A stretch of DNA of 64,000 nucleotides from Microcaldota archaeon (GTDB taxonomy: Archaea > Micrarchaeota > Micrarchaeia > Micrarchaeales > CABMGC01). The DNA lies in assembly GCA_021818925.1 (NCBI GenBank), contig JAKASU010000001.1, positions 522,911 through 586,910 on the forward strand. Reading direction: 5' to 3'. Under the pieces are notes generated by a model. The model was not told where the DNA came from. It saw only the letters and a list, made by a program, of their open reading frames with translations, and searched no databases. The position numbers and the translations under genes are program-made. Below are positions 8 through 13,997 of this stretch, in pieces; within the stretch, counting starts at the first letter, position 1, and each line of letters starts with the position of its first letter.

Positions 8-364
8 GTGACAGAAGCGGCGAAATCGCTCAAACCGCAAGAGAGAAGGGTGCCGCTTAGCGCGCGCCCCGGTTCCTACGCGTGGATAGAGAAGCTACTC
101 GAAACTCCGATAGCTGACGTTAGGCACAGGTCGGTCAACCTCATCTTGGCCCCGTATCTTGTGAACGTCAAGGGCCTCGATGAGGAGAGCGCGGCAAAGG
201 TTATAATAGACTACATCGAAAGGTGCAAGACGATAAACCCGAACACGAAGATCAACGAATCGTACATAAGATACCAATGCAAATACGCCAAGAACAAGGG
301 CATGAGACCCCTTTCCATGGCGAAGGCAAAGGACCTGCTAAAGGAGGTCGCGGAATTCGAGTGA
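8..364 (+). CDS. PriX-like / primase-associated helical domain protein, possibly 5'-truncated by window edge
   Basis: Translation has WIEKLLETPIADVRHRSVNLILAPYLVNVKGLDEESAAKVIIDYIERC...YIRYQCKYAKNKGMRPLS, resembling PriX/primase C-terminal helical domains. The reading frame is open to the window start. Confidence 0.55.
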   Translation: MTEAAKSLKPQERRVPLSARPGSYAWIEKLLETPIADVRHRSVNLILAPYLVNVKGLDEESAAKVIIDYIERCKTINPNTKINESYIRYQCKYAKNKGMRPLSMAKAKDLLKEVAEFE

Positions 365-5230: not shown

Positions 5231-5532
5231 TGATAAGCTTCATACTCGTGGCCGCGGTTGCGCTCCTGGGGATAGCGCTTGCGGGAATAATAACGGACAG
5301 GCACTTCATCGTGATCATGCTTGCTGTCGAGCTGATGTTCATCTCAAGCACCATCCTGCTGATGTACTTCTTCTACCATGCAAGCAACCCCGACCCTTCC
5401 GTATTCCCGATGATGGTCTCGATATGGGCTGTCGCTGCCGTGGAGGTCATTGCGCTCATCACCTTCTATGTCTACATGAAGTTCCGCGGGTTCGACTTCG
5501 ACGTTACGAGGCTCTCGAAACTAAAGTGGTGA
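5230..5532 (+). CDS. nuoK: NADH-quinone oxidoreductase-like subunit K
   Basis: Three-TM NuoK-like protein (LAVELMFISSTILL) with GTG start overlapping nuoJ. Confidence 0.9.
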   Translation: MISFILVAAVALLGIALAGIITDRHFIVIMLAVELMFISSTILLMYFFYHASNPDPSVFPMMVSIWAVAAVEVIALITFYVYMKFRGFDFDVTRLSKLKW

Positions 5533-5534
5533 AC

Positions 5535-7298
5535 ATGATAGCTTTTGCGCTGTTGGCGCCGTTGCTTGCTGCGATCCTAGCTGTGGCTGCGATCAAGAGC
5601 CACAAGTACGCAAAGTACTTCGCAATCGCAGGATCGCTCCTGAGCCTTGCGCTCTTCCCGCTGATAGACAGCGGCACGGAAAACGTTGGATGGCTCTCGA
5701 TAGGAGGCGTGCAGCTTCCGCTCACTGCCTCGGTGCTCCCGCTGAACTACATGCTGCTCTTTCTTGTGCTGACCATCGGCCCGCTGATAATGATATATTC
5801 GGCGGGCTTCATGGACCTGCCGAGCGAACAGAGGCGCTACTACATAGAGATGCTGGCTTTCGAGGCCGCCATGCTCGCCTTTGCCATGGCCGGCAACTTC
5901 ATCGTGCTCTTCATAGCCTGGGAGTTCCTCAGCATGACAAGCTACCTGCTGATAGGCTTCTGGTACGACAGGGACAAGGCTGCCGCAGCGGCGCGCAAGG
6001 CGATAACGATAATACTGATAGGCGACATAGCCCTGCTCGCTTCGATGGTGATGTTCCAGAACAACTTCGGGAGTCTGCAGTTCAGCGTGATTCTCAACGG
6101 GATCGGCAACGGGGGGCTTACGCTAATTCCGGTAGCTCTGCTCTTCATCGCCATAATGACCAAATCTGCGCAGTTCCCAACAGAGGAATGGTTGGTGGAT
6201 GCGATGGAAGGCCCTACACCAGTATCGGCCTTCCTGCACAGCAGCACGATGGTGAAGGCCGGAGTTTTCGTTGCGCTGGTCCTCTTTCCTCTCTTCGCAG
6301 CTACTGGAATGCTCAACGTCATGCTTGCCGTGGGTGCGATAACCGTGGCTCTGGCCGTGTTCAGTGCGACAAGGTCACGACACGTGAAACGCGTGCTGGC
6401 TTACTCCACGGTGCAGGAACTGGGCTTCATGCTGGTCGCAATAGGCAGCAACGCCCTGCTTGCAGCAGTCTACTTCTTCTTTGCGCAGAGTTTCTATAAG
6501 GCGCTGCTCTTCTTCAGCGCTGGAAGCGCCATGAAGGCCACGGGCAAGGAAGATCTCGCTGACATAACAGGGCTGCAGCGCAATAGGCTCATATACATAA
6601 CCACGATCTTCGGCGCCCTCGCTCTTGCAGGATTCATTCCGTTCGATGGGTTCTTCGCCAACATAGGAATAGACTCCGCTTTCTCTACAAACCTCATAGC
6701 ATATGCGCTTGTGTCGCTTGCCAGCTTGGCGACCAGCTTTTACATCTTCAGGTGGCTCTTCAGCCAGACGAGGAAGGAGGGGAGCGCAAGGGTCTCGCTG
6801 AACTACGCCTCTACGCCGAAGAGCATGAGCTACAGCATGCTCGTCCTTGCCCTTGCCACGCTAGGAGCCAGTGTGGCGTTCTTCATGTTCCCTTCAATGT
6901 TTAGCGGGCTTGGAGGCGGCACGCTGACCATAGGAGCCATAGATGGTGTGGTCGAGACCGTGCTCATCGCGATAGGCGCGTACGTTGGCTTCGTGCTCTA
7001 CAAGCAGAGGAAGAGGAACAGGCTGAAGATGGTGCAGCCGGAAGTTCTGTTCAACACGATCTATTCCGCTGCGCTCATGAACGCATTCTACGCCCACATC
7101 GCTGGTTTTGTTGAGGCGATTGCGAGTGCGGTAGCGTATGCTGACGCGAAGCTCGATGCCGTCTTTGACTGGCTCGGACATATTGCGATGAGAGCTTCGG
7201 GGGAGATGAGGCTCTTCGCAAGCGGAAGCGTGAATGCCTATGTGGCGCTCTTCGCTGCCGGGATGGTGGTGCTGATAATAGTTGTGGTGGCACTATGA
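5535..7298 (+). CDS. nuoL: NADH-quinone oxidoreductase-like subunit L
   Basis: Antiporter-like subunit: FIAWEFLSMTSYLLIGFWY, PTPVSAFLHSSTMVKAGVF. Start chosen at MIAFALLAP. Confidence 0.93.
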   Translation: MIAFALLAPLLAAILAVAAIKSHKYAKYFAIAGSLLSLALFPLIDSGTENVGWLSIGGVQLPLTASVLPLNYMLLFLVLTIGPLIMIYSAGFMDLPSEQRRYYIEMLAFEAAMLAFAMAGNFIVLFIAWEFLSMTSYLLIGFWYDRDKAAAAARKAITIILIGDIALLASMVMFQNNFGSLQFSVILNGIGNGGLTLIPVALLFIAIMTKSAQFPTEEWLVDAMEGPTPVSAFLHSSTMVKAGVFVALVLFPLFAATGMLNVMLAVGAITVALAVFSATRSRHVKRVLAYSTVQELGFMLVAIGSNALLAAVYFFFAQSFYKALLFFSAGSAMKATGKEDLADITGLQRNRLIYITTIFGALALAGFIPFDGFFANIGIDSAFSTNLIAYALVSLASLATSFYIFRWLFSQTRKEGSARVSLNYASTPKSMSYSMLVLALATLGASVAFFMFPSMFSGLGGGTLTIGAIDGVVETVLIAIGAYVGFVLYKQRKRNRLKMVQPEVLFNTIYSAALMNAFYAHIAGFVEAIASAVAYADAKLDAVFDWLGHIAMRASGEMRLFASGSVNAYVALFAAGMVVLIIVVVAL

Positions 7299-8668
7299 TG
7301 CTAGAAATCTATGCGTTCGGGGCCCTGACCGCGGCGCTCGTGCTTGGTAACATGCTGCTCAGGATCAGCAGCGGGAAAAAGTTCCATCTTGCATTCAACC
7401 TCGTTGTGCTTGCTCTGCTTGCCGCAAGCGTCCTCACGCTCTCGCAGGTGCAGGGCACGTACTTCGGCATTATCTCCATAAGCCAATACTCGGTGTTCTT
7501 CTTCGCGCTCTTCACCGTGGCTATGCTGCTGCTTAACCTGCTGGCTTACGCGCGCTCCAACGGGTACAACAACTTCGCTCTTCTTGGAGCTTTCGCGCTT
7601 GTGGGCATGTATCTTGTGGTTTCGTCTGTTTCGCTGATAACCATATTCCTTGGACTCGAGCTGATGGTCATACCCTCCGCATTCATAGTGCTTCTGTCCC
7701 GCAGGGAGAGCCTTGAGGCCGCCACGAAACTGTTCATAATGGCTTCTATATCGATCGCGCTCCTCTCCTTCGCCATAGTGCTGGTGTACGGGTCTGCGAA
7801 CTCGCTGTCGCTCCAGGCGCAGCAGCCCGGTACGCTCATGCTGTTTGCTCTAGTCCTATTCATTACGTCGCTGGGGTTCGAGGCGTCGGTGTTTCCCTTC
7901 AACATACTACTGCCTGACGTGTACGAAGGCTCTGCAGGATATGCGACCGCGATGCTGGGAGGCCTGAACAAGAAAGTGGGGATAGCAGCACTGATGCAGG
8001 TACTGATTCTTGTGTTCATCTCATTCCGCACTGCCTTTGCAATAATCGCCGCGCTTGCGGTGCTCACCATGTTCTATGGCAACCTGGTCGCGCTGGCGCA
8101 GGACAACCTCAAGCGGATGCTAGCCTACTCATCCATATCGCAGGCAGGTTACATACTGATAGGAATAGCGGTCGCTACGCAGAGCGGGATCTCGGCCAGC
8201 ATCTTCCAGATATTCGCGCACACGTTCATGTTCATAGGCGCGATGAGCATAGTCGCGTGGCTCGAGAACAGGAACAGGAACGGGATCAACGACACGATAG
8301 GCCTCTATAAGGAGAATAGGTTTGCAGCTATCGCGCTGAGCATATTCATGCTGGCGATGATCGGCATCCCGTTCACAGCCGGCTTCGTAGGCAAGTTCCT
8401 CATATTCTTCAGCGCTGTGAACAACGGCCTGCTGTGGCTTGCGCTGCTGGGCATAATAAACAGCGTAATATCCGTCTTCTATTACGCAAAGGTAATGACG
8501 GCAATGTACACGGACAAGCTGGGAGCGTACCGCATAAAGCTAGACACGCCAACGCTTGTAGTGATAGTGGTCTGCCTTGCCGCGGTCATGCTTTTCGGCG
8601 CTTATCCGCAGCCAATGATACAGGCGGTGAGCGGGGCTGCAAGCCATCTCTTCGGAGCTGCCACGTAA
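7295..8668 (+). CDS. nuoN: NADH-quinone oxidoreductase-like subunit N
   Basis: Antiporter-like subunit: FGLELMVIPSAFIVL..., LAYSSISQAGYILIG; terminal nuo position. Confidence 0.88.
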   Translation: MMLEIYAFGALTAALVLGNMLLRISSGKKFHLAFNLVVLALLAASVLTLSQVQGTYFGIISISQYSVFFFALFTVAMLLLNLLAYARSNGYNNFALLGAFALVGMYLVVSSVSLITIFLGLELMVIPSAFIVLLSRRESLEAATKLFIMASISIALLSFAIVLVYGSANSLSLQAQQPGTLMLFALVLFITSLGFEASVFPFNILLPDVYEGSAGYATAMLGGLNKKVGIAALMQVLILVFISFRTAFAIIAALAVLTMFYGNLVALAQDNLKRMLAYSSISQAGYILIGIAVATQSGISASIFQIFAHTFMFIGAMSIVAWLENRNRNGINDTIGLYKENRFAAIALSIFMLAMIGIPFTAGFVGKFLIFFSAVNNGLLWLALLGIINSVISVFYYAKVMTAMYTDKLGAYRIKLDTPTLVVIVVCLAAVMLFGAYPQPMIQAVSGAASHLFGAAT

Positions 8669-11452
8669 TCATCTCCTCCCGTACTTGCTGAAGAAGGCGA
8701 GATACCTGCCCATTATCAGCGTGGGGGCTGAAGGCCTCGCCCTCTGGATCAGGTCTGTGATGTTTGCGAGCTTTATCTTGACCTCCTTCCCGGTCATCAG
8801 GCTGGATTCGAGGGTGTTCAGCTTGACCTGCCTGCATATGTTTGCTATGTCCGCGCCTGTGTAGCCCTCGGTCACCTGCGCCAGCCTCATGAAATCTACA
8901 TCCTTGTCGAGCGGAGCCTTCTGCAGGTTGAGCTCGAAGATCCTGGCCCTGCTGTTCGGGTCCGGAGGCGGCATGAATATCAGTCTGTCGAACCTGCCCG
9001 CTCTGAGGAGAGCTGGGTCGAGCGCCTCAGGCCTGTTCGTAGCAGCCACCACGACGACTCCTGAAGCTTCCTTTATCTTGTCGAACTCCTGCAGGAATTC
9101 GCCGGCTATCTCAAGGTTGGTCGCCATAGCGCTGTCCCTTGACGGCACTATCGCGTCTATCTCGTCCACGAAGACTATTGAAGGCGCATTTTCTTTCGCC
9201 CTGTCGAATATGCCCTTTATCGTTGCGCTGGCGTTTCCTGGCCCTCCCTTTGCTATGTCGTAGCCTGACAGTATCATCACGTGGACATCGCCGACCTCGT
9301 TTGCTACTGCCTGCATCAGCATCGTCTTGCCGGTTCCGGGAGGACCGAAGAGCAGTATGCCCTTTATGTTGCCGATGTCATACTTCTTGAGCAGTTCCGG
9401 ATGCATTATTGGTATCTCTACAGCCTCGTGCAGCGCCTTCTTCGCTTCGTCGAGGCCTATCACATCGTCAAGGTTCACCTTCTTCTCCTCCTCCACCTGG
9501 CTCTCCGGGTGTACCCTCCTCTCGTAATCGAGTCTAAAGGTGTTGAACTCCTCGAGCTGGGAGAGTGACGTCGAAGGCTTGGTGCCCTTGATTACGTGAA
9601 CAACATCGGCCATCTTTATAGTGAGCACCTGGTGTTTCGTTATCGCCTCGTCGCCGACCTCCCTGCTGACCTCCTCGCATACGTTCTTTATGTCAGCGGC
9701 CGAGAACCTGTTGGTCAGGCTGGCCAGTTTCTCGTAGTCTATGTCGTTGCCTATCGGGAGCGCTGCCAGGTAGTGTTGAAATATCTTCTCCCTGCCTGGC
9801 TGGTCCGGTAGTGGCATGTATAGTATCTTGTCGAACCTTCCGGGTCGCATTATCGCAGGATCGAGGAGCTGCGGAGCGTTGGTGGCGCCGACTATGACCA
9901 CATCTGATATCGTCTTGAAGCCGTCCATCTCGCTGAGCAGGGTGGTTATGAGCTCGAGTCCGCTCGTGTTGGTCTGTTGTTCCCTTTTCCCCGCTATGTT
10001 ATCTATCTCGTCGAAGAAGAGGACGCAGGGTGCGTGTTTCTTCGCAGTTGCAAATATCCTTGAAAGCGCCTGGGCGCTCTCGCCAGGATAGGGGGACATG
10101 AGCGACGACGCGCTTACGTAGAAGAATCCTGCACGGATCTCGTTTGCCAGGGCCCTCATTATCAGCGTTTTGCCTGTTCCGGGAGGGCCGAAGAGCAGTA
10201 TGCCCTTTGCGGGCTTGACGTTGTACGCTCCGGCTATCTCCCTGTGCTCTATGGGACCGAGTATTGATTCCTTGAGCTCCTGCTTCGTCTCATCGTAGTT
10301 CGCCACATCATCAAGCGTCTCTGTGGTTCCCTGGGTGAGGTCCTCCAAAGCGACTCCGAACTTGCCAAGGATGTCACGCTTCATCACGTCCAGAGCCTGC
10401 ACGACCTCTATGTTTGAGCTCTCGAGCGCGAAGATGGCGATCGGGGTCAGGAGGAAGCTGATTATGACAAGCGGGTTGAAGCTCGTTCCTGTAGGTCCGG
10501 AGAGCAGGAATGACGATACCGGAAGCACAACGCCAAAAAGGCTCGACACCGTGCCCTTGTACGGCGACCTGCTTTTCACAGCGTAGCTGGCGACGCTGAA
10601 AGCCACGAAGACCCACAAGACTATCTGAAGTATCGTGTACTGTATGTCAAAAGCCAGGGCGGCGCCTGCGTAGTAGAATGTGTCGAACAGGTGGTCATCA
10701 ACGGTTGGGCCGAAGAACACTGCAAGAGAAGATGATGCTTTCGAAATGAAGTTGCCGAGCGTTGCGGCAGGATATGTTACTGTAAAGTATTCCGCGTATG
10801 AGAGCGACGCTATGGACTGGTGGCCAAGCTGTGAGTTGTAGGCGATTGGACCCGAGACGGGTATGTTGGCAAGGTTCGATACTATGGCGACAATCAGTAT
10901 CACGAGCACGCCTATTATCGCGCCGCGCCTGAAGCCGAGCGTCAGGACCGCTATTATGAAGCCGGGGACCTCGAAGAGGAGGCCGAGAGGCGTGAGCGGC
11001 AGCGCAACGAGTGCGTAGGCGTAGGATATGGAACGGTAGTGCTTGTACCCCAGAAATAGGGACGCGCTTATGAATATCGTTATCAGCCATGCCAGAAGCG
11101 GCGCCTGATAGATTAGCATTGGAAGCGTCAGAAGTAGGAGCGCCATGAGCCCCAGGAGTGGAGCTATATAGGTGAACGCGAACACGAGCAAGAGGAGCGG
11201 TACGAAGAGCGCTAGCGGAAAGAACGGGAAAGCGATGCCTATGCTTATGAATGCGAAGGATGTGGCCAGCGAGTCATGGAAGTTGTGGTTCGACACTACG
11301 CGCTTGACAAAATCCTTGAGCCAGTACACCGAGATCGGCACCAGCTTGCGCTTGAGCATGTCGGCGGTAGACTCGCCTGATGGTGGGTCGCCCCCAGAAG
11401 GCACGCCGCCTTTTTTGCCCCCGGTTCTCCTCTGCATACTCTTAACTCTCAA
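8669..11452 (-). CDS. Membrane-integrated CDC48/VCP-like AAA+ ATPase: about 10 N-terminal TM segments plus D1 and D2 AAA+ domains
   Basis: About 345 hydrophobic N-terminal residues, then two modules, each with GPPGTGKT, DEID and RPGRFDK / RAGRFDR. Start could instead be the internal Met at about 11437. Confidence 0.9.
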   Translation of the reverse strand: MRVKSMQRRTGGKKGGVPSGGDPPSGESTADMLKRKLVPISVYWLKDFVKRVVSNHNFHDSLATSFAFISIGIAFPFFPLALFVPLLLLVFAFTYIAPLLGLMALLLLTLPMLIYQAPLLAWLITIFISASLFLGYKHYRSISYAYALVALPLTPLGLLFEVPGFIIAVLTLGFRRGAIIGVLVILIVAIVSNLANIPVSGPIAYNSQLGHQSIASLSYAEYFTVTYPAATLGNFISKASSSLAVFFGPTVDDHLFDTFYYAGAALAFDIQYTILQIVLWVFVAFSVASYAVKSRSPYKGTVSSLFGVVLPVSSFLLSGPTGTSFNPLVIISFLLTPIAIFALESSNIEVVQALDVMKRDILGKFGVALEDLTQGTTETLDDVANYDETKQELKESILGPIEHREIAGAYNVKPAKGILLFGPPGTGKTLIMRALANEIRAGFFYVSASSLMSPYPGESAQALSRIFATAKKHAPCVLFFDEIDNIAGKREQQTNTSGLELITTLLSEMDGFKTISDVVIVGATNAPQLLDPAIMRPGRFDKILYMPLPDQPGREKIFQHYLAALPIGNDIDYEKLASLTNRFSAADIKNVCEEVSREVGDEAITKHQVLTIKMADVVHVIKGTKPSTSLSQLEEFNTFRLDYERRVHPESQVEEEKKVNLDDVIGLDEAKKALHEAVEIPIMHPELLKKYDIGNIKGILLFGPPGTGKTMLMQAVANEVGDVHVMILSGYDIAKGGPGNASATIKGIFDRAKENAPSIVFVDEIDAIVPSRDSAMATNLEIAGEFLQEFDKIKEASGVVVVAATNRPEALDPALLRAGRFDRLIFMPPPDPNSRARIFELNLQKAPLDKDVDFMRLAQVTEGYTGADIANICRQVKLNTLESSLMTGKEVKIKLANITDLIQRARPSAPTLIMGRYLAFFSKYGRR

Positions 11453-11869: not shown

Positions 11870-11914
11870 CGCTCCTATCAACAATTATAAACCTGAAACG
11901 AGCAGTTCTATCGC

Positions 11915-11987
11915 GCCTTGGTAGTGTAGTGGTCTAGCATACGAGCCTGTCACGCTTGTGACCCGGGTTCGAATCCCGGCCAAGGCG
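11915..11987 (+). tRNA. tRNA-Asp (GTC)
   Basis: GCCTTGG...CCAAGGC acceptor, anticodon loop CTGTCAC, T-arm CCGGGTTCGAATCCCGG. Confidence 0.95.
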
Positions 11988-12095
11988 TATACGTCCTTTT
12001 CCTGCTCTCCTTTTTCACGAATCTGTATGCAAGTATATCGGACGTAAACTCTGATTTAAAAGGTTTTTATTTCACCATTAACTCAAGGTGGGAAT

Positions 12096-12575: not shown

Positions 12576-13997
12576 CTAGGCAAACGGGGACAGGAGCAAC
12601 GACGGGACTATTCCTAGCAGCACTGCCGATATGGAGAGAAGCGCCATAGAGACCTTGATATCCAATCCCGGGGTCGTGTAAGGCTCAGAGGCCTTCGATG
12701 TGCTTAGGAACGCGCGCTCCGCCACGAAAAACAGGAAGGCGCCGATTATCAGCACCGCCGCAAGCGGCACGACGCCCCATATGCTGTATGCGGCGAACGC
12801 CCCGATGAAGACAAGAAGGTCGCCTACGAAGCCTGCGGTAAGCGGTATGCCGATAAGCGCGAACACACCGAAGATGAAGCCGTACGCGAGAAGCGGAATG
12901 CTCTTGACAATCCCCTTGAGCCTTGCGACGAGCATTGTGCCGTACGCCTCGTCCACGGCGCCGACTATCATGAAGAGGAGTGATATGACTATCCCGTGGC
13001 TCAGCATCGCGTAAAGCCCTCCGGCTATGCCGAAAGGCACGAGAGAGGCGATGCCTAGAGACGCTATGCCCATGTCAACTATGCTAGTGTAAGCGATGAG
13101 GCGCTTGAGATGTGCCTGACGAATCGCCACCATGGAACTGTAGAGCGCTGAGAATCCGAAGACCGCGGCCAGCGGAAGCGCGTACGAGGATGCGGCCGGA
13201 AGGAGGAGGAACATGAGCAGAAGCCCGTAGCCGCCAAACTTTAGCAGCACTCCTGCAAGTATCATGCTGCCTGTCGTGGGCGCCTCGGTATGGGCGTCCG
13301 GCAGCCAGCTATGGAACGGGAACGACGGTATCTTTATCATGAAAGCTATTGCCAGCAGCACGAGAGCGATGAGCTGCGAAGATGCAGGAAGCGAAGCTGA
13401 TTGTGAGATTATGGAGGTTATAGTGAACGTTCCTGTAGGGAGACCCGCGTAGATCACCAGTATGCCGATCAGGAGGAGCAGGCTCGCGGCTATTGAGTAT
13501 ATCAGGAACTTTATGGCCGCGTAGCGCCTGTCGTACCCCCCGAACACGTAGATTATGAAGAACATGGAGATCTCGCTGATCTCGAAGAAGACGTAGAACA
13601 GGAAGAGGTTACCTGACAGGAAGACGCCAAGCGCCGAGCCTGACACGAGGAGGAAGAGCAGATTGTAGATACGCTGTGACTCCTTGATGAAGCTCTTTGC
13701 AACGATTGCGGCCGCGAGGAGCACTATGGCTGACATAACCATGAATATGTTGCTGTACTTTGTGAGCTCGAGGTCGAGGTTCACTCCTATGCTCTGTATG
13801 TATCCTTGCTGGAATGAGAGTGATGGGAACCCCTGCGTCAGGCCGTATGCCGACGCGGCAAGAACGGCAAGCAGGACCAGGAGCGATGATACTATGGAGA
13901 CCGCGAACGAGTGCCTTTCCGGAAGAAACAGCAAAGGTATGATGAACAGGAAGGGCAGGAATACTATAAATGCGAGAAACGGAAGCATCCACATCAC
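12576..13997 (-). CDS. nuoM: NADH-quinone oxidoreductase-like subunit M
   Basis: Antiporter-like protein: FYVFFEISEISMFFIIYVFGG, FPFHSWLPDAHTEAPTTGSMILAGVLLKFGGYG. Confidence 0.92.
   Translation of the reverse strand: MMWMLPFLAFIVFLPFLFIIPLLFLPERHSFAVSIVSSLLVLLAVLAASAYGLTQGFPSLSFQQGYIQSIGVNLDLELTKYSNIFMVMSAIVLLAAAIVAKSFIKESQRIYNLLFLLVSGSALGVFLSGNLFLFYVFFEISEISMFFIIYVFGGYDRRYAAIKFLIYSIAASLLLLIGILVIYAGLPTGTFTITSIISQSASLPASSQLIALVLLAIAFMIKIPSFPFHSWLPDAHTEAPTTGSMILAGVLLKFGGYGLLLMFLLLPAASSYALPLAAVFGFSALYSSMVAIRQAHLKRLIAYTSIVDMGIASLGIASLVPFGIAGGLYAMLSHGIVISLLFMIVGAVDEAYGTMLVARLKGIVKSIPLLAYGFIFGVFALIGIPLTAGFVGDLLVFIGAFAAYSIWGVVPLAAVLIIGAFLFFVAERAFLSTSKASEPYTTPGLDIKVSMALLSISAVLLGIVPSLLLSPFA

Follow-up and report, generated by a model that had tools for sequence, protein, structure and literature searches.

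Gene structure and domain organization

The analysed stretch of 64,000 nucleotides, referred to here as the window, comes from a Micrarchaeota genome of 760,734 bases that is 97.6% complete. A gene encoding a protein with a predicted N-terminal membrane domain and two AAA+ modules, hereafter the membrane ATPase, was identified on its minus strand. Window positions 11452 to 8669 are open throughout in one reading frame, which starts from TTG and spans 927 codons; the coordinates given in the original prediction were exact, and the strand had gone unstated there. The conserved ATG is codon 6 of this frame, at position 11437. It lines up with the starts of the orthologues and gives a protein of approximately 922 aa, and the TTG is probably not the true start. 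A tRNA-Asp gene (11914-11988, plus strand) is located upstream of the ATPase gene. A nuoN-like gene (7295-8668, plus strand) converges on it from downstream and ends beside its stop codon. The features of the gene and its product are listed in Table 1. A separate N-terminal gene, a frameshift and a misassembly were ruled out by the identical single frame in more than 200 genomes. The recurrence of this single-frame architecture also excludes a chance origin of the fusion.

Table 1. Features of the membrane ATPase gene and its product in the window.
Feature	Residues	Window positions	Strand	Basis or remark
Whole gene, conserved ATG to stop codon		8669..11437	-	Open frame and orthologue start alignment
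Membrane domain, ten predicted TM helices, N-in/C-in	58-345	10418..11281	-	Hydropathy, AlphaFold, charge distribution, conservation
Predicted TM helices 1-5	58-74, 80-96, 98-116, 118-135, 136-153			
Predicted TM helices 6-10	157-172, 174-195, 270-293, 299-321, 328-345			
Extracytoplasmic loop of membrane domain	196-269			About 74 residues
Membrane-to-D1 linker	346-378	10319..10417	-	Alignments; conserved, KFGxAxEDL here, KFGKFGLQDL in deep lineages
AAA module D1	379-622	9587..10318	-	Pfam PF00004; nearest solved, p97/VAT
D1 Walker A, GPPGTGKT	422-429	10166..10189	-	Sequence; P-loop Lys invariant
D1 pore loop 1, SPYPGES	453-459	10076..10096	-	SxWYGES in many deep orthologues
D1 Walker B, DEID	481-484	10001..10012	-	Sequence; D and E invariant
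D1-D2 linker, insert of about 20 residues (PSTSLSQLEEFNTFRLDYERR)	623-655	9488..9586	-	
AAA module D2	656-886	8795..9487	-	Pfam PF00004; nearest solved, VAT D2
D2 Walker A, GPPGTGKT	703-710	9323..9346	-	Sequence; P-loop Lys invariant
D2 pore-loop-1 position, KGGPGNAS, without aromatic-hydrophobic pair	735-742	9227..9250	-	
D2 Walker B, DEID	763-766	9155..9166	-	Sequence; D and E invariant
C-terminal tail, ending in RYLAFFSKYGRR, without HbYX motif	887-927	8672..8794	-	

The ten-helix membrane domain

Eight hydrophobic segments were detected in the membrane domain by a 19-residue hydropathy scan with a strict cut-off. The AlphaFold model of the domain alone (44 sequences; pLDDT 79, pTM 0.75) contains ten membrane-length helices, of which the helix at residues 136-153 is weakly hydrophobic. 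The full-length AlphaFold model also gave ten helices; its pTM is just 0.40, so the domain arrangement in that model is not reliable. The Lys and Arg residues of the domain are found mainly at the N-terminus and on the presumed cytoplasmic loops, suggesting that both ends of the domain face the cytoplasm and that the AAA modules are cytoplasmic. The original prediction of a polytopic N-terminal domain with roughly ten TM helices was thus borne out by two AlphaFold models, hydropathy and charge distribution, and membrane embedding of the ATPase is strongly predicted. The domain is strongly conserved in the alignment of orthologues.

The membrane domain matched no Pfam family and had no relative among PDB sequences. 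Comparison with PDB folds returned no match (best E about 1, TM below 0.25), nor did comparison with viral fold models, and viral contigs searched for relatives of the domain yielded none. No known transporter or channel fold was thus recognised in it by the Pfam, PDB-sequence, PDB-fold and viral-fold comparisons. At the sensitivity of the Pfam, PDB and viral-fold searches, the ten-helix domain is undescribed.

The AAA+ modules

The AAA family PF00004 was matched twice in the membrane ATPase (E = 1e-78), and both modules are nearest to VAT/p97 in sequence and model comparison. The motifs reported for them at the outset, with Walker A, Walker B and arginine fingers intact in each, were confirmed. 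GRFDK and GRFDR are both present in the sequence. The sensor-1 Asn is located at residues 525 and 806 and the arginine fingers at residues 536/539 and 817/820. Among 32 orthologues, neither module shows any variation in the P-loop Lys, the Walker B Asp and Glu, the sensor-1 Asn or the arginine fingers.

The two modules differ in their pore loops. The D1 pore loop keeps an aromatic residue, here and in many deep lineages (SxWYGES/T). At the corresponding site of D2 (KGGPGNAS, KRGYEYS and similar), both the aromatic-hydrophobic pair and the GES are gone. The soluble CDC48 has SKFVGES or similar pore loops in its D1 and D2 rings alike. The insert in the D1-D2 linker resembles the protein's own C-terminal tail motif and is missing from soluble CDC48.

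An HbYX-type C-terminus, defined as a hydrophobic or small residue followed by Tyr or Phe and then X (most commonly MYR), was found in none of 19 membrane ATPases versus all 21 Micrarchaeota soluble CDC48s. Direct docking of the membrane ATPase to the 20S proteasome through HbYX is therefore unlikely. No protease domain, neither M41 nor Lon_C, was detected in the protein by Pfam and NCBIfam searches, in agreement with the earlier statement that no protease follows the AAA modules.

Distribution across Micrarchaeota

With profile A2, the membrane domain was retrieved from 238 of 295 Micrarchaeota genomes, all of one class, including 86 of the 96 high-quality genomes. In nearly all cases the same frame also encodes both AAA modules. 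Complete copies have frames of approximately 890-985 aa, and more where inteins occur; the shorter frames with the membrane domain, part of which were checked, are probably contig-end pieces. The phylum-wide search gave matches from the class of the source genome alone. A contig scan using patterns fitted to the window's own family retrieved near relatives only. The wider profile A6 added three genomes with the membrane domain and none from families f5, f9, f11, f15 and f21, so the membrane ATPase is probably truly absent from these families.

One genome (G038) carries two copies of the membrane ATPase gene (L053 and L054), approximately 30 kb apart. Intein-like inserts were observed at the D1 pore-loop site (..GE, then the insert S..HN, then SEKN) of orthologues L077-L084 from families f12, f13 and f14, and the L083 orthologue has a second intein-like insert directly before the D1 Walker B. 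Domain fusion was considered for the deep-lineage frames of 1072-1950 aa and rejected, since the extra length resembles D1 inteins.

Companion ATPases and proteases

Companion genes were surveyed in 118 genomes of the class that are at least 88% complete. The proteasome was found in all of them, the soluble CDC48 N-domain in 116 and Lon_C in 117, the last encoded by a gene separate from that of the membrane ATPase. The original prediction had called for a survey of the architecture beside soluble CDC48 and the proteasome, and all three coexist. FtsH-type M41 was detected in 0 of the 118 genomes, and the same search was positive in 10 of 14 control genomes.

When the source genome was searched with the membrane ATPase, just two other proteins matched strongly, the 718-aa soluble CDC48 and a TPR-AAA protein, and thus no separate PAN-like gene was seen in this genome. 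The TPR-AAA protein (G000:C3:454655-455395; L003; L068:6146-7630) has 494 aa; its N-terminus is TPR-like, it contains a single Cdc48/FtsH-like AAA module, and it is the third classic AAA ATPase of the source genome.

LonB of the source genome (G000:C3:148244-151441) is encoded by one 1113-aa frame with an intein. LonB in genomes G079, G071, G075 and G101 is encoded by two separate genes, cut at an identical place. An intein-like C-terminal half precedes the second piece of the split LonB in these genomes (L187/L141, L144 and L194 in G079, G075 and G101), and at L194, where it was read, an intein-like N-terminal half follows the first piece. Judging from these sequences, the split LonB genes likely carry a naturally split intein. 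Extra Lon_C matches in the families lacking the membrane ATPase were considered as compensation and turned out to be at least partly intein-split LonB halves.

A LonB-like ATPase of approximately 480-520 aa that lacks a protease domain and carries a zinc-ribbon-like insert of the CxxC type was identified in several Micrarchaeota families (L190-L193 and L195-L197). It is present, with a length of about 490 aa, in all eight membrane-ATPase-free genomes examined. A role as a membrane-bound replacement was rejected: hydrophobic segments are absent in the proteins read, and G067 and G101 encode the LonB-like ATPase alongside the membrane ATPase.

Proposed function

We tentatively propose, with somewhat less than even confidence, that the Micrarchaeota membrane ATPase uses D1 to dislocate or remodel membrane proteins and does so with no protease of its own. 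The protein would form a hexameric double ring with D1 beside the membrane. The ten-helix domain would bind or laterally release membrane proteins, the D1 pore loops would grip their exposed parts, and D1 would then pull them into the cytoplasm or separate their complexes. D2 would mainly power or steady the ring. Release of the substrate is proposed because the membrane ATPase has neither a protease nor an HbYX tail; the freed substrate may be reused, or destroyed by the soluble CDC48-20S proteasome or by LonB. The membrane ATPase would in this way take the dislocase role held in bacteria by the motor of FtsH.

Dislocation is supported by the conservation of the fusion across the phylum, by the intact ATPase sites of both modules and by the closeness of these modules to the VAT/p97 unfoldases. 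The threading-type pore loop in D1, the absence of FtsH M41 and the near-universal presence of the proteasome, Lon and CDC48 point in the same direction, as do the predicted ten-helix topology with cytoplasmic AAA modules and the lack of a protease domain and an HbYX tail. Against dislocation, D2 differs from p97 in having no pore loop of the gripping type, and families f5, f9, f11, f15 and f21 live without the membrane ATPase. The dislocase niche is not empty, as these archaea already have a membrane AAA protease, LonB. The dedicated extraction or translocation machine of the original prediction is a plausible candidate function, with the S-layer neighbourhood and the lost D2 pore loop leaving other roles.

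Gene neighbourhood and alternative functions

The setting of the membrane ATPase gene varies among families. In the source genus the gene lies amid complex I genes, and this setting is confined to family f1. The nuoL and nuoN genes (window 5424-8668, plus strand) are located downstream and converge with the ATPase gene, and nuoM (12576-13997, minus strand) is located upstream, so that the usual L-M-N order is split around the ATPase gene. This split arrangement is common to near relatives. Housekeeping genes adjoin the ATPase gene in family f2. In families f3, f4, f7, f8, f10 and f12, the ATPase gene is followed by an S-layer gene (PF05124) in the same direction, and in deep families glycosyltransferase and GH57 genes are located upstream of it. 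In deep Micrarchaeota, a conserved co-directional block of glycosyltransferase, GH57, ATPase and S-layer genes, followed by two more genes, was observed at L085, L086, L089-L093 and L095. The last two genes encode membrane-anchored extracytoplasmic proteins of approximately 690 and 155 aa that share a domain of unknown function. A match to FtsH_ext (E 0.044) on a 166-aa neighbour in L090 was weak and was not counted as significant. The gaps between the ATPase and S-layer genes measure 218-374 bases at three loci, making a shared transcript uncertain. S-layer genes are common in genomes with or without the membrane ATPase, and in the source genome the S-layer gene lies approximately 270 kb from the ATPase gene.

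The main rival to membrane-protein dislocation is an envelope role, in which the ATPase would power the export of S-layer proteins or other proteins of the cell surface, or their assembly or turnover, with the ten-helix domain serving as a channel or dock. Deep lineages conserve S-layer and glycan genes beside the ATPase gene, and not proteolysis genes, which counts against dislocation. The co-directional S-layer gene in six families, the two membrane-anchored extracytoplasmic proteins encoded after it at several loci, and the glycosyltransferase and GH57 genes upstream all fit an envelope role. However, the arrangement is not kept in families f1 and f2 or at the f14 loci read, and the gaps between the genes leave a common transcript uncertain. 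Families without the ATPase also have S-layer genes, and that of the source genome is far from the ATPase gene. We regard an envelope role as unlikely.

Similarly improbable is remodelling of one defined membrane complex in an NSF- or Bcs1-like manner, in which the ATPase would dismantle or mature a single partner. The protein has neither a protease nor an HbYX tail, its strongly conserved ten-helix domain suits a specific partner, and its gene lies amid complex I subunit genes in the source genus, all of which is consistent with such a role. However, no partner gene is consistently adjacent phylum-wide, and the complex I setting does not extend beyond f1.

Relationship to CDC48 and origin of the tandem

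The best NCBIfam model for the membrane ATPase is the CDC48 model TIGR01243, with 458.9 bits, under the cut-off of 802.65; the soluble CDC48 of the source genome scores 1027 with this model. The CDC48_N double-psi barrel was not among the Pfam matches listed for the membrane ATPase. In an AAA domain tree built from a reduced set with few outgroups, D1 and D2 of the membrane ATPase group with each other (99/97). The groupings were put to the test once the first tree was known; among them, the constraint placing membrane D1 with soluble CDC48 D1 was rejected (p-AU 0.0168), and that placing it with soluble CDC48 D2 was borderline (p-AU 0.054). The pairing of D1 with D2 and the rejected D1-with-D1 constraint therefore suggest that the membrane tandem represents its own lineage within the Cdc48-type AAA domains, and not a CDC48 with a new N-terminus; the evidence for this is good but not final. 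The tree suggests that the tandem arose more than once and thus bears on the evolution of Cdc48-type double rings. The membrane ATPase is a member of the Cdc48-like AAA group but falls short of the Cdc48 family proper in the barrel, the family cut-off, the D1/D2 orthology and the D2 pore loop.

The original prediction held that the barrel is replaced in this protein, which was not upheld. An origin from a CDC48 orthologue by exchange of the N-terminal barrel for a membrane domain is quite improbable: VAT/p97 are the nearest solved proteins to both AAA domains and TIGR01243 is the top NCBIfam model, but its score falls well under the cut-off that the soluble protein exceeds, barrel-bearing soluble CDC48 coexists in 116 of 118 genomes, D1-with-D1 orthology is rejected (p-AU 0.017) with both domains of the membrane protein grouping together, and the HbYX tail is missing.

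A broader reading, possible but rather doubtful, is that the membrane ATPase is a membrane machine of a new class, in which six subunits would place approximately sixty TM helices of undescribed fold around a double AAA ring and act as an ATP-driven channel or dislocase that carries proteins across the membrane or out of it. Such a machine would stem from an AAA duplication of its own, within Micrarchaeota or earlier, and would replace FtsH-type handling of membrane proteins.

Comparison with known systems

How faulty membrane proteins are removed in archaea without FtsH is poorly known, and LonB is the best-studied candidate. The membrane ATPase is a nearly universal, uncharacterised and catalytically intact motor, predicted to be set in the membrane, across an archaeal phylum with minimal genomes. 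No published description of its ten-helix double-AAA architecture was found in the open-access literature. The original prediction had named a prior description, two or fewer TM helices and a separate N-terminal gene as outcomes that would speak against it, and none of these was observed.

Like CDC48, p97 and VAT, the membrane ATPase has two AAA modules in tandem, and both retain the full set of catalytic residues. It differs from them in having the ten-helix domain where CDC48 has the double-psi barrel, in its D1 and D2, which are not orthologous to those of CDC48 in the tree, and in its linker insert, lost D2 pore loop and missing HbYX tail. The lack of a C-terminal HbYX also sets it apart from the proteasome-activating PAN and archaeal CDC48. 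With FtsH and the i-AAA and m-AAA proteases it shares a membrane domain at the N-terminus, a cytoplasmic AAA ring after it, and likely membrane-protein substrates. These proteases have one or two TM helices where the membrane ATPase has ten predicted ones; the latter also has two AAA modules, which are nearer to Cdc48, and lacks an M41 domain.

Archaeal LonB is also a membrane-bound AAA+ machine (PMC9263693). Its TM segments, however, lie inside the AAA module, it has a serine protease domain, and here it is encoded by a separate, coexisting gene. Msp1/ATAD1 are membrane-anchored, protease-free AAA ATPases that handle membrane or transported proteins. Bcs1 is likewise a membrane-anchored AAA ATPase without a protease that acts on membrane or transported proteins (PMC10567702). 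Unlike the membrane ATPase, Msp1/ATAD1 and Bcs1 each have a single TM helix and a single AAA module. The Spaf-like proteins of core eudicots, which belong to the Cdc48 family, have a double AAA, a membrane anchor and no N-domain (PMC5070193). Their anchor is a C-terminal TM segment gained in plants, in contrast to the N-terminal ten-helix domain described here, and this C-terminal anchor on a plant Cdc48-family protein is the nearest printed precedent. As a working analogy, the membrane ATPase may be seen as the motor of FtsH minus the protease, or as p97 with the membrane recruiter built in. Its membrane-docking part is in the same chain and not recruited through an adaptor as in p97, and the system therefore looks self-contained and testable with a single gene.
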